From a virus, in the IMG/VR virus record IMGVR_UViG_3300029309_000251, positions 1 through 28,698 of that record: a DNA stretch of 28,698 nt, one strand, 5' to 3'. The position numbers and the translations under genes were made by a program. The notes under the pieces are model-generated. The model was not told the DNA's origin. It worked only from the letters and a program-made list of their open reading frames with translations, and did not search any database. Below, in pieces: positions 22,901 to 27,214 of this stretch. Each line of letters starts with the position of its first letter. Position 1 is the stretch's first letter.

Positions 22901-23106
22901 TTGATGCCTTTCTGTGCCAGCAAAAGCTTGAGCTCATCGACGGAAACAACAAGCTTCTCCAGCATACCCATAACCTGTAACTCCTGTTTCTCTAGCATCG
23001 CGATGCGGGCCTTCAGCTTTCCGATTTCGGTTTGGAGCTTGAAGTATACCCCAACGAGGGCCCCCGCGAGAGTGAGGATTTCGAATAGGGTAATGGTGTT
23101 GTCCAT
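22897..23106 (-). CDS. 69-residue membrane-anchored coiled-coil protein, holin/spanin candidate
   Basis: Residues 5-24 (ITLFEILTLAGALVGVYFKL) form one membrane span. Residues 25-62 are a coiled coil (EIGKLKARIAMLEKQELQVM, LEKLVVSVDELKLLLA), followed by a short basic end QKGIK. Anchor plus coiled coil next to an endolysin is typical of small phage lysis proteins (XhlA-like or spanin-like, or an accessory holin). The stop overlaps the endolysin ATG as ATGA, so the two are co-translated. The family is not recognised with certainty. Confidence 0.9.
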   Translation of the reverse strand: MDNTITLFEILTLAGALVGVYFKLQTEIGKLKARIAMLEKQELQVMGMLEKLVVSVDELKLLLAQKGIK

Positions 23107-23192
23107 GATGCTTTATCCTGCCACTCAGGTTCCTGCCAGTAAATCCAATATTGCTGGTGTCTTTTACTATGGTAAATATACCTAAGCGACAT
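23013..23192 (-). CDS. Possible overlapping 59-residue gene
   Basis: An 85-base stretch between the 136-residue gene and the 69-residue membrane gene is otherwise empty. An ATG at 23192 overlaps the upstream TAA as TAATG, the same junction used at four surer sites here, and opens a frame beginning MSLRYIYHSKRHQQYWIYW then QEPEWQDKASW. Only the first 29 codons lie in the gap; the remainder overlaps the membrane-protein gene by 94 bases and becomes serine-rich. The aromatic N-terminal part looks protein-like and the tail does not, so the gene may be real, decayed, or merely a re-initiation leader. Confidence 0.35.
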   Translation of the reverse strand: MSLRYIYHSKRHQQYWIYWQEPEWQDKASWTTPLPYSKSSLSRGPSLGYTSSSKPKSES

Positions 23193-23602
23193 TATTCCTC
23201 TGGCAACTCTGGCAACCAACCCAGCTCCTTGGCTTCCTCTTCAGTAAGCTGTACACAAGTGGATGGGATAAGCTGCTCGAAAAGAACGGAGCCGCCCTTG
23301 TTGGACTCCACCAAAGCAATCAAAGAATCCATCTCGGCAGCAGGCACGCCGGGAAGAAGCGCAACAAGCTCGTCCAAAACCAAGGCTGGGTTCATGTAAA
23401 TCTCCTCCGCCGTGTCCCCTACGATGGCCACCTGTCCCGTGTCGGGGTGGGTGATGCGGGGGAAGTAGTATTTTGTTAAATCCTGCGAGGATTGCAGAGA
23501 GAGAGGTCGACGCAGGCACCAAATTTGTGCGTCTATAGCTTCCGCCCGCTCCGCGCTGGTCAAGCTCAATTCCGGCTCGATAGGTATGTATACAGTGCTC
23601 AT
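23192..23602 (-). CDS. 136-residue acidic hypothetical protein in the tail-fibre/lysis junction
   Basis: The start lies 3 bases beyond the stop of the second LamG-like gene. The chain is acidic, with a helical N-terminus (SLTSAERAEAIDAQIWCLRR), a middle strand region (KYYFPRITHPDTGQVAIVGD) and helical leucine-rich segments (NPALVLDELVALLPGV, MDSLIALVES), ending TEEEAKELGWLPELPEE. There is no signal or membrane segment. I do not recognise the family. Position between fibres and lysis genes suggests a fibre chaperone or tail accessory, but nothing in the sequence proves it. Confidence 0.85.
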   Translation of the reverse strand: MSTVYIPIEPELSLTSAERAEAIDAQIWCLRRPLSLQSSQDLTKYYFPRITHPDTGQVAIVGDTAEEIYMNPALVLDELVALLPGVPAAEMDSLIALVESNKGGSVLFEQLIPSTCVQLTEEEAKELGWLPELPEE

Positions 23603-23605
23603 GGA

Positions 23606-24577
23606 TTAGTAAATCTGAAAATGCGAGTTCATGTTGTTTTCTATGTCGCTGCGGTTGTTGAATTGGTCAGCGCCCCACACAATAAACTCCTGCATGGTTC
23701 CATTCCATCGAAGGTTCGATGTGTGATAGTTTCCCAGAACTTGTTGGCTTGCCGTCAAAGTAGCATTTACCAAAGCAGGCGTTGTGCTTCCTTGGGTTCC
23801 GTTTAAAAATGAACGCGCTACAGTGGAGGTAGAACCAGCAATAAAGGTGCGCAGTCGCTGATTAGTATCCATTGCGCCGTGATTAACGCGCCACGACGCC
23901 CCAGGACCTCCATACTGCATTGTATCATCGCCATTATACATATAATGCCAGTATCTGTGATTCCCCCCTGTATTCAGGGTAAACTGCATTTTGCTACCGC
24001 TCGTAGCATTAGATTGGCACACGGTGACGGCGCTTAAATTGTTGATGTTCAGCCCGGACAGGGAAAGCGGAAATTGTGCCGAGCCATCAAAGTCAAGCGC
24101 AGGCTTGCCGTTTTCAGTAATCAAATCCGTATTGACCGTACCGTCGTGAATCTGCGGTTGGTTGCCCGGAGTGCTCTGCGTAGCGTCGTTACTATTGCCA
24201 CTCTGGTCGTACCAAGAATCGCAGTAACCTTCAGCCGTGTTACTCAAGCTGTCCGTATCAGGATATGTAACGCCGTTAACCGTACCCACGTTTAGGAACG
24301 AACCCAAAGTAGTGGAGTTAACTCCAGTATCGGCATTGCTAATGGGACTGTTAAGGCTCAGCTCATTGTTACTGTCGTACCTAAAGTCCGCCTCGTCGTC
24401 GTTACCAGTATTGCCTACCCCGGTAACGCGGCGAACACGAATAAGGGCGCCGGTAGAAGAACTAAGTCGACGTACCGAATATGCAGCCGCAGCGCCGCTC
24501 GCGTAGCTCTGGTCCAGAAGGAACGCACCGCCAGAAGCTGGGATGGTTAAACCGTTTATTTCTGCAATACTAGCCAT
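23606..24577 (-). CDS. LamG-like receptor-binding candidate, paralogue 2
   Basis: The 323-residue protein starts in a TAATG junction with its upstream paralogue. Shared N-terminal blocks are GGAFLLDQSYASGA, AAYSVRRL, RVRRVTG, and DDEAD, then NVGTVNGVTY, YDQSGNSNDATQ, QPQIHDGTVNTDLIT and GKPAL. The YDQSGN-NDAT block is known from concanavalin-like/LamG and arabinofuranosidase-type modules. The middle (about residues 178-285) is unlike the paralogue, and the C-terminus returns to similarity (TMQEFIVWGAD, NRSDIENNMN). This is a beta-sandwich carbohydrate- or receptor-binding protein by inference, placed next to the fibre gene. No catalytic residues were identified. Confidence 0.9.
   Translation of the reverse strand: MASIAEINGLTIPASGGAFLLDQSYASGAAAAYSVRRLSSSTGALIRVRRVTGVGNTGNDDEADFRYDSNNELSLNSPISNADTGVNSTTLGSFLNVGTVNGVTYPDTDSLSNTAEGYCDSWYDQSGNSNDATQSTPGNQPQIHDGTVNTDLITENGKPALDFDGSAQFPLSLSGLNINNLSAVTVCQSNATSGSKMQFTLNTGGNHRYWHYMYNGDDTMQYGGPGASWRVNHGAMDTNQRLRTFIAGSTSTVARSFLNGTQGSTTPALVNATLTASQQVLGNYHTSNLRWNGTMQEFIVWGADQFNNRSDIENNMNSHFQIY
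24495..24533 (-). repeat. 39-bp exact repeat shared with 25427-25465
   Basis: The 39 bases encoding the AFLLDQSYASG region are identical in both LamG-like genes. A second exact match of 28 bases joins 24116-24143 to 25042-25069. Exact DNA identity inside partly diverged genes suggests recent exchange or conversion between the copies. Confidence 0.9.
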
Positions 24578-25539
24578 TAGTAGATGCTGAAGTAGTTGTT
24601 GATATTGGTCTCTATGTCGCTGCGGTTGCTGATGTTGTCTACCCCAAAAAATATTTGCTCTTGCATAAGGCCACCAAACGTGAATGAACCGTTATTAAAA
24701 GAGTTTATATAGAAATTTCCCCAAGTACTTGTACCAGCCTCAACTATACTAAGTAATAGAGTGCTATTTATAGCAAGTTCTGTATGCGCGTCATCCATAG
24801 TGGAAATGGTAATACTTGACCCATTTTTGTAAAAACTAGGCACGCCAAAATCCCTGTAACCAGCAGCAGATAAATTATTAATGGAAATTGGAGCGTATGC
24901 AGAGGATGGACCACCACCGTATGTGCAGAAAGTCTGGTCGCCATTTGAATTGTATACCTCAAAGCTTGACCAATCGGAGGACAAGGTTATTCCGCTAACG
25001 GCTTCATATCGCCCCCCTTGAAGCGCCGGCTTTCCGCCATTAGTAATCAAATCCGTATTGACCGTACCGCTGTGAATTTGCGGTTGGCTGCCTGCCGTGT
25101 TTTGCTCTGCGTCGTTTCCGTTGCCACTTTGGTCTTTCCACTCATCCACGAAACACGAAGCCGTCACCGTCAAGGAGTCGGGGTTGGTGTACGTCGTGCC
25201 ATTGACCGTACCCACATTGATGAACTGGCCCAACGTTGTCGCCGTAACTCCAGAGGATGCGTTGGAAATAGCTGAGTTCAAGGAGATGGTCGGAGTAGAG
25301 AGGAAAGTATCGAAAGCTACATCCGCCTCGTCGTCGTCTCCCGCGCCTCCCCCCGTATCCCTGCGGACGCGCATGGAAATAGTTTCGCCCGTACGAAGCT
25401 GTCGCACGGAATATGCAGCCTCAGCCCCGCTCGCGTAGCTCTGGTCCAGAAGGAACGCACCGCCACCAGAAACTGTTAGCCCGTCTACCTCCGCCAGATT
25501 AGAAATGGCAGTGCCGTTAACTTCGCTTATATCAGGCAA
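24577..25539 (-). CDS. LamG-like receptor-binding candidate, paralogue 1 (TTG start)
   Basis: I choose TTG at 25539-25537, overlapping the end of the fibre gene by 8 bases, over the upstream ATG at 25596. The TTG start gives an N-terminus (PDISEVNGTAISNLAEVDGL) that aligns with the paralogue opening ASIAEINGLTIP, whereas the extra 19 residues are arginine- and cysteine-rich and lie inside the fibre gene. The 320-residue product shares GGAFLLDQSYASGA, GDDDEAD, NVGTVNGTTY, WKDQSGNGNDAEQ, QPQIHSGTVNTDLIT and GKPAL with paralogue 2. The middle differs, and the end (LMQEQIFFGVD, NRSDIETNIN) is shared. It is probably a tail-tip adhesin. Confidence 0.88.
   Translation of the reverse strand: MPDISEVNGTAISNLAEVDGLTVSGGGAFLLDQSYASGAEAAYSVRQLRTGETISMRVRRDTGGGAGDDDEADVAFDTFLSTPTISLNSAISNASSGVTATTLGQFINVGTVNGTTYTNPDSLTVTASCFVDEWKDQSGNGNDAEQNTAGSQPQIHSGTVNTDLITNGGKPALQGGRYEAVSGITLSSDWSSFEVYNSNGDQTFCTYGGGPSSAYAPISINNLSAAGYRDFGVPSFYKNGSSITISTMDDAHTELAINSTLLLSIVEAGTSTWGNFYINSFNNGSFTFGGLMQEQIFFGVDNISNRSDIETNINNYFSIY
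25427..25465 (-). repeat. 39-bp exact repeat shared with 24495-24533
   Basis: Partner copy, within the first LamG-like gene. The two copies are in direct orientation 932 bases apart, so recombination between them would delete one gene and make a hybrid. Confidence 0.9.
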
Positions 25540-27214
25540 TCTTAATCCAGTCTTGTGATGGCGTGAAGAGCACCTTGGCAAGACTGCCCTCAACACCTAT
25601 CTGGTGAGCTATAACGCGAGAATATTCGTCGGCGGTGCTAGGCTGAGTGGCCGTAAGCTCGCCAGCCGTACCCGTACCAACATACAAAATGTCGCCAGCA
25701 GAACCCGGGTTGTGGTCCAAAACGCCGATGCCCTGAATAAGCATGCCATTGACCGCAGGGTTGGCACCTAAAGCCATAGCTACCAAACCCTTGGTGGTAG
25801 CTTCTCCGCCCACGCTGGCGTCGACAGCGACCCAAGAGCCGCTAGAGAAAGTGTACACCTTACCGGGAGAAAGATTGGTGGGGCTACCGAACTTAACAAC
25901 AGTACCCTCGGCATTGCCAGCAGCAGTAATGTTGGCGCTCGAGGCCTCGAAAGTAATTTGAGCACCTACCACAGGGCCCTGAACAGAGCCCTTGATGGTG
26001 TCAGAAAAAGAAAGCTGACCGCTGCCATTAGTAACCAAAGGCTGGTTGGTAGTGCCGTCAGCCTCAGGTAGCGTAAGCGTATAGGTAGCATTAGCAGTGT
26101 GAGCAGGGCTTTTGAGCGTTACGCCATGCGAGTTGCTTTCGCAGTTTAACCGAATCGCTCCCGGATTGGTGTTTCCTTTAACCTCTACAAAGCCAGTGCC
26201 GTTAGCAGTAAGCTTAATGTTGCCGTTAGTAGTAGACGTGTCTATCTCAAAAGATTGAACGTCAAGGTTGCCACCCAATTGAGGAGTCGTATCATCGACG
26301 ACAGCAGCGATGCCAGAAGCAGAACCGTTGGCAGCAGCCGTAATACGACCCGATGCGTCGACAGTAATGTCAGCGTTGGTATAGCTTCCAGCGCCTACCC
26401 CCGTAGTAGCCAACTTAGCCGTAGTAACGGCTAAGTCGTTAATCTTAGCCGTAGTAACGGCCAAGTCGTTAATTTTAGCCGTAGTAACAGCATCGTCGGC
26501 AATTTTAGCCGTAGCAACCGCGTCGTCAGCAATCTTAGCCGTAGTGACAGCATTGGCCGCGAGGCGAGCCTCAGTAACGCCAAGGTTGCTAATGCCGACA
26601 GACATAGTGCCAGCACCCGTGATTGGGTTGGTGCCACCGATAGTAATGCCGCCACCGTTGCTCAAGCCTACAGACGTAACCGTACCGCCACCGCCAGTAT
26701 TAGCCGTAATCTCTATGGAGCCGTCGCCCTCAACAAGTGTGATGCCGGAGCCAGCCGTAAGCGTAGCGTTGGTGAAAGTGCCGTCCGTCTTTCCGATAAG
26801 GAGCTCGCCGTCAGTAACGCCGGACACAGAAACGTCGGTGAGGTCGTTGACCGAAGCGTTCAAAGCAATGGTGCCAGAACCAGTAATGGTGCCCCCGCTC
26901 AAGCCCGTGCCAGCAGTAACGCTAGTAACCGTACCTACCTCAGCCCCAGCAGCGATACCGTCCAACTTGGTCTTGTCGGCAGCGCTCATAGAGCCCGCAG
27001 CACTAGTAGTGGCCGCAGAAATACCGATGTCAGGAGTATTGCCCCCCGTAGAAGTGATAGGTGCTGTAGCAGTAACGCCGGTAACCGAGCCACTAACGAG
27101 GTCGGAAACGGCTACCTTTTTGGTAATGTTAGCCGCGACGTCGACGATGGCCAGAACGTCGTTATTCGCTGGGGTAGTTAGCGCCGTTAAGTCAGTTATC
27201 TTCTTATCTGCCAT
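25532..27214 (-). CDS. 560-residue repetitive tail fibre protein
   Basis: The N-terminus (KKITDLTALTTPANNDVLAI) is the usual attachment-type opening of fibre proteins. Residues 69-93 carry TTSAAGSMSAADKTKLDGIA, a module common in phage fibres. Residues about 210-270 hold six 10-residue units (TTAKIADDAV and TTAKINDLAV types). A block after residue 350 reads NPGAIRLNCESNSHGVTLKS then TYTLTLPEADGT, common in aquatic phage fibres. The C-terminal 110 residues look like a globular end (GLVAMALGANPAVNGMLIQG, VLDHNPGSAGDILYVGTGTA). The start is one base after the stop of the 56-residue gene. The two LamG-like proteins downstream probably complete the adhesion apparatus. Confidence 0.93.
   Translation of the reverse strand: MADKKITDLTALTTPANNDVLAIVDVAANITKKVAVSDLVSGSVTGVTATAPITSTGGNTPDIGISAATTSAAGSMSAADKTKLDGIAAGAEVGTVTSVTAGTGLSGGTITGSGTIALNASVNDLTDVSVSGVTDGELLIGKTDGTFTNATLTAGSGITLVEGDGSIEITANTGGGGTVTSVGLSNGGGITIGGTNPITGAGTMSVGISNLGVTEARLAANAVTTAKIADDAVATAKIADDAVTTAKINDLAVTTAKINDLAVTTAKLATTGVGAGSYTNADITVDASGRITAAANGSASGIAAVVDDTTPQLGGNLDVQSFEIDTSTTNGNIKLTANGTGFVEVKGNTNPGAIRLNCESNSHGVTLKSPAHTANATYTLTLPEADGTTNQPLVTNGSGQLSFSDTIKGSVQGPVVGAQITFEASSANITAAGNAEGTVVKFGSPTNLSPGKVYTFSSGSWVAVDASVGGEATTKGLVAMALGANPAVNGMLIQGIGVLDHNPGSAGDILYVGTGTAGELTATQPSTADEYSRVIAHQIGVEGSLAKVLFTPSQDWIKIA
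26411..26590 (-). repeat. Six tandem 30-bp repeats in the fibre gene
   Basis: Units of 30 bases with the core CTTAGCCGTAGTAAC (plus-strand reading) run head to tail. The units at 26412-26440 and 26441-26470 are almost identical, and those at 26471-26500 and 26501-26530 are close. The outermost are degenerate. They encode ten-residue TTAKI-x-D-x-AV blocks. Confidence 0.9.

Follow-up and report, generated by a model that had tools for sequence, protein, structure and literature searches.

Two adjacent genes next to the tail fibre gene of an uncultured phage encode proteins that resemble each other at both ends and diverge in the middle. How such a centre comes to vary inside an otherwise conserved protein, and what it might be for, are the questions raised by this locus. 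The proteins are very probably tail adhesins, in which a constant frame holds a centre cassette diversified by homologous recombination, and their role would be the binding of a receptor. The window, meaning the whole stretch of DNA analysed, comprises an entire virus record (28,698 bases), which is probably a fragment of a genome.

The tandem genes and their neighbours

The genes are read from the minus strand in the order tail fibre (25532–27214), P0002 (24577–25539), P0001 (23606–24577) and orf23192 (23192–23602), followed by a small coiled-coil or holin-like gene and then an M15 peptidase endolysin; the large terminase and portal genes lie farther along. The tail fibre (560 aa), directly upstream of P0002, has matches among PHROG tail fibres and is probably the carrier of the two putative adhesins. 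Its short tandem repeats of the AVTTAKINDLAVTTAKI type (26431–26655) are a low-complexity stalk, common in phage fibres. The terminase of the window has matches of about 45% in Flavobacterium and Cellulophaga podophages and one of 74% in an uncultured podovirus. No DNA similarity to the window is found in the isolate phages searched, and the isolate-type record nearest by terminase, MW202828, has no such unit in the 13 kb that were read.

P0001, a stand-alone unit of 323 aa, is the downstream copy and P0002, of 320 aa, the upstream one; both frames are open throughout. The ATG of P0001 at 24577 overlaps the TAA of P0002 (TAATG). The start of P0002 is most likely the TTG at 25539, which overlaps the stop codon of the tail fibre gene. 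A doubled motif at this start (ISEVNGTAI / LAEVDGLTV, 25480–25539) resembles the single motif at the start of P0001 (IAEINGLTI), and is possibly a docking peptide.

The two proteins are 41% identical overall (BLASTP, E 8e-61), with their first ~160–175 and last ~17–30 residues in common. As the earlier note had noticed from the letters alone, the ends are alike and the centre is divergent: identity reaches 64% in the N part and 56% over the final ~32 residues, and drops to 22% in the centre, the level of shuffled centres (23%, p 0.64). The variable cassette of P0001 comprises about residues 161–306 (23660–24097, minus strand), where DNA similarity to the relatives L001 and L009 ends at both borders and entropy jumps. 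That of P0002 comprises about residues 171–303 (24631–25028, minus strand), its left border being placed where DNA matches end (25025–25042) and its right border by homology. The exact matches of 39 and 28 nt described earlier are correct, and a further match of 18 nt lies at the 3′ border. The 28-mer, at 24116–24143 in P0001 and 25042–25069 in P0002, marks the left homology arm, and the 18-mer, at 23640–23657 and 24611–24628, the right one, where it encodes NRSDIE of the C-terminal helix. The 39-mer (24495–24533 in P0001, 25427–25465 in P0002; like the others on the minus strand) lies far upstream in the constant stem.

The conserved partner gene, orf23192, encodes 136 aa without a Pfam, PHROG or NCBIfam match, and no relatives are found in 84,980 prokaryote genomes or in isolate phages at the sensitivity used; a tail-fibre chaperone or assembly partner is a guess. 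It serves as a marker independent of the unit, by which 80 loci are found in IMG/VR. In 77 of the 78 testable loci, a unit is found immediately upstream of this marker (within 60 nt in 75, at 73 nt in two), L031 being the sole exception; three further contigs begin too near the marker to be informative. Units also move within the locus, because L004 and L010 have an extra unit downstream of orf23192, about 0.4–1.45 kb past the start of the marker. Preferential breakage of contigs inside units due to microdiversity was considered and rejected, as contig ends within 1 kb, counted by eye, are about equally frequent on either side of orf23192.

Replacement of the centre among related phages

Across 86 units, entropy is about 1–1.5 bits over most of residues 1–160, about 3 bits at 161–290, and 1–2 bits at the end. 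Over 4,095 pairs of units, identity is 58% in the N part, 24.9% in the centre (23.6% when shuffled) and 47% at the end. The entropy profile and the regional identities exclude uniform divergence along the unit, and the differing centres exclude identical copies in all relatives.

Phages that are 95–99.5% identical at the DNA level downstream have, yet, unrelated centres. L069 and L076 share 99.5% over 6,254 nt downstream, and their centres are 27% identical. The window is about 95% identical in the adjacent region to both L001 and L009, with terminase proteins at 100% and 99.7% and centres at 26% and 22%, respectively. Further pairs with an almost identical downstream region and unrelated centres are L073/L082, L061/L085, L075/L076, L081/L082, L073/L081, L043/L054 and L001/L009. 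Intermediate identities over full-length centres do not occur among close pairs, apart from re-assemblies and L071/L075. The pairs L036/L037, L044/L045, L062/L063 and L012/L013, with identical centres and 99.9–100% downstream, were each counted as a single virus, and in L071/L075, with 97% downstream and 99% in the centre, the centre is genuinely retained. In most of about 20 pairs, not all of them independent since some members are in common, the left DNA arm stops 3–6 codons short of the centre, and similarity resumes on the right mostly 13–20 codons before the stop codon; a few pairs deviate. Judged from these alignments, the centre is a discrete cassette exchanged at recurrent borders, and the relatives give strong support to the earlier proposal of a constant frame with an exchangeable centre. 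The exchange seen is between phages. Donors are rarely seen because the pool of centres consists mostly of singletons (65 clusters from 93).

The centre is almost without linkage to the rest of the genome. In 63 terminal units, identity of the marker is correlated with that of the N part at rho 0.48, and with that of the centre at rho 0.038 (Mantel p 0.09); in the 18 pairs whose markers are at least 97% identical, the centres have a mean identity of 24.6% and a maximum of 30%. The correlation of DNA blocks with the backbone falls from 0.43–0.55 to 0.20 at the left border and to 0.02–0.09 inside the cassette, and past the right border it is 0.17 and then 0.27. Compared with the remaining N part, the 27 codons that precede the cassette and the 20 that follow it have reduced synonymous diversity, both in the complete set and in two subsets. 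The reduction is interpreted as a sign that recombination homogenises the arms, another constraint at the nucleotide level being possible.

The centres of L036 and L019 are 93% identical in nucleotides (dS 0.11), their N parts have a dS of 1.36, and the two contigs show almost no DNA similarity elsewhere; judged by these values, a cassette has been transferred between unrelated backbones. The relatives are nearly all metagenome contigs, so that chimeric assembly could account for the association of a centre with a distant backbone, although on its own contig every centre runs on into the conserved end and the adjacent gene. A candidate transfer between L033 and P0002 was rejected, as the centres (45–47%) are no closer than the N parts (50%).

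Gordonia phages of different genera (L090–L096), from one host strain, 3612, have one common unit with a centre identity of 96–100% in amino acids and a dN/dS in the centre of about 0.01–0.1. In places, the annotation of this unit (gene 27–32) reads alpha-L-arabinofuranosidase or minor tail protein. Since the centre is conserved and dN/dS is low, the centre is under selection where the host is constant, as expected of a segment for receptor specificity. The sequenced examples are all from that one host strain and the surrounding genes are likewise shared (89–99% in nucleotides over 2–4 kb), and therefore the case is suggestive rather than a proof.

Could the centre have diverged fast in place, with positive or relaxed selection acting on point mutations and small indels, and with no exchange? 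Centres that cannot be aligned, and lengths that vary by about 10 residues, would fit such a course. However, close phages have centres that are either identical or unrelated, the borders recur, the centre common to L036 and L019 stands at a dS of 0.11 across unrelated backbones, and the Gordonia centres are under strong purifying selection, all of which makes divergence in place very unlikely. Diversity-generating retroelements, which mutate their target by means of a reverse transcriptase and a template, diversify tail lectin folds in other phages, a precedent for mutation of the present centre. That origin is nevertheless extremely improbable, because the variants differ over the whole centre, length included, instead of at adenine-derived sites within a repeat that can be aligned; between near-identical phages, no alignment of the centres is possible at all. 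In addition, no reverse transcriptase is present among the ~20 proteins scanned in the window, a partial genome.

Precise borders and reduced synonymous diversity in the flanking codons would also arise if a site-specific recombinase or an inversion switch swapped cassettes between stored copies. Against this, no inverted repeats of at least 14 nt, as crossover sites of the Gin/Cin type around the variable part would form, are found in 23000–26200, a silent store of cassettes is not seen, the DNA at the left border varies, and the decay of linkage is gradual rather than stepwise, so that a switch of this kind is most unlikely.

Fold, probable activity and number of units

Both proteins were modelled with AlphaFold (P0001, pLDDT 83 and pTM 0.87; P0002, pLDDT 79 and pTM 0.81, with residues 209–233 of the centre below 50). 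The best structural match of each model is a GH54 alpha-L-arabinofuranosidase over the whole length (P0001, Z 21.9, 254 residues aligned, rmsd 2.9; P0002, Z 19.2, 244 residues, rmsd 3.1). Because both models match GH54 in full length, the variable part would be the middle of one beta-sandwich, and the two proteins are likely to be equal in predicted fold across the centre, where the model of P0002 is less confident. At the sequence level, a search of the PDB with P0001 alone gives nothing, and GH54 is found only by the family profile, which was built from 79 aligned units and matches arabinofuranosidase B (1wd3; E 6e-8) in the N-terminal part only. PF09206 (GH54) is matched by 51 of the 79 members (best 2.8e-15) and Laminin_G_3 (PF13385) by 7, P0001 and P0002 themselves matching neither; the sequence libraries give almost nothing for these two except one PHROG virion structural family. 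The description of the pair as LamG-like in the earlier note comes near, since the concanavalin-like fold is common to both, with the catalytic domain of GH54 arabinofuranosidase being the closer match. Toxin binding domains, pentraxins and sialidases were rejected as functional relatives, as they have only the general concanavalin-like fold in common.

The GH54 fold, the N-terminal sequence match and the annotation of some phage homologues as alpha-L-arabinofuranosidase raise the possibility that P0001 and P0002 are virion glycosidases, i.e., depolymerases of the GH54 type, in which a change of the centre would alter the substrate specificity of the enzyme. This is unlikely, since the centre of P0001 contains no Glu and therefore lacks the nucleophile of GH54 (E221, in the middle of the domain); in the centre of the family, where the alignment is unreliable, Glu reaches at most 16% in any column. 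For want of this residue, P0001 is probably a binder rather than an enzyme.

In the relatives, a unit either is a protein by itself or forms the end of a long fibre (up to 1,870 aa), and a locus holds one to three units, separate or fused. Internal copies close with linkers such as YLIYQPTDxPTSGLL or FQIGNFGTPTSG, and terminal copies with YFSIY. In L001, the terminase of which is 100% identical to that of the window over the 374 residues compared, an upstream unit is followed by one gene of 651 aa holding two units, whose first start and last end correspond to those of P0001. One unequal recombination between repeated N parts would interconvert the arrangements of L001 and the window. The same type of change in unit number is shown by L042 (two units) against L054 (one; 91% downstream) and by L066 (two) against L061 (one; 95% downstream). 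Of what had been suggested earlier for the direct repeats, fusion and change of copy number find support in relatives such as L001; the 39-bp repeat does not act as a border of the cassette.

A model of cassette exchange and its parallels

Together, these data are consistent with the following course of homologous recombination. As adhesins of the tail, P0001 and P0002 would probably sit at the tip of the 560-aa fibre encoded upstream, each folded into one GH54-like (concanavalin-like) beta-sandwich. The constant frame consists of the first ~160 residues together with the strand and helix at the C terminus, and the intervening ~130–145 residues are the variable and probably ligand-binding part. 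When two phages meet in one cell, homologous recombination would occur across the conserved DNA immediately before the centre (..ENGKPA..) and at the 3′ end, in the DNA for ..NRxxIE.. and the conserved downstream genes, and one centre would replace another in frame. Unequal recombination at the same repeats would yield one to three units, separate or fused via the conserved linkers. The swap of a centre probably lets the virus grip different bacteria. More speculatively, and with a small chance of being right, this widespread lineage of uncultured phages may have an antibody-like system, in which a constant beta-sandwich frame accepts binding cassettes from a huge, freely circulating pool, and the flanks are kept uniform as dedicated exchange arms, possibly aided by a phage recombination function and orf23192.

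The compact, alignable frame allows the recognition segment of uncultured phages to be excised automatically. Phages with near-identical neighbouring genes and different cassettes are a natural experiment linking cassette to host.

The best mechanistic parallel is gp38 of T-even phages. Recombination between the conserved motifs of gp38 reportedly swaps specificity, as Tetart and co-workers are said to have found in 1998. There, too, the adhesin adjoins a long tail fibre, and a variable part flanked by conserved motifs is exchanged between phages. In gp38, hypervariable segments lie between conserved glycine-rich motifs and are followed by a conserved end (PMC12529663). Unlike gp38, with its several short segments and polyglycine fold, the present unit has a single cassette of ~130–145 residues inside a GH54-like beta-sandwich and occurs in one to three tandem copies, and no sequence relation is claimed. 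With the catalytic domain of GH54 alpha-L-arabinofuranosidase B (PDB 1wd3, 6sxt; PF09206), the units have in common the full-length fold and an N-terminal sequence motif, whereas they lie in a phage tail region, have a hypervariable centre, without the catalytic Glu in P0001, and lack the C-terminal part of the enzyme past residue ~335.

The nearest isolate relative is Synechococcus phage S-CBS4 (31.7% over residues 116–323), in which the adjacent genes gp058 and gp059, both annotated as virion structural proteins, match the unit profile. They form a tandem pair (L089, 2896–4651), of which gp058 matches weakly. Unlike the units of the window, this pair is distant and has no close sister phage.

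It is established that receptor-binding proteins are mosaic (PMC10684548) and that marine phages have metaviromic islands for host recognition (PMC3909814). As in those cases, recognition genes here vary among near-identical phages and shuffle between distant ones. Mosaicism of receptor-binding proteins usually swaps whole terminal domains, whereas here it is the interior of a single fold that is exchanged, and the two borders coincide in most of the pairs tested. What sets the present case apart is that, within one GH54-like fold and at borders that recur, a centre almost fully unlinked from the ancestry of the phage is exchanged.
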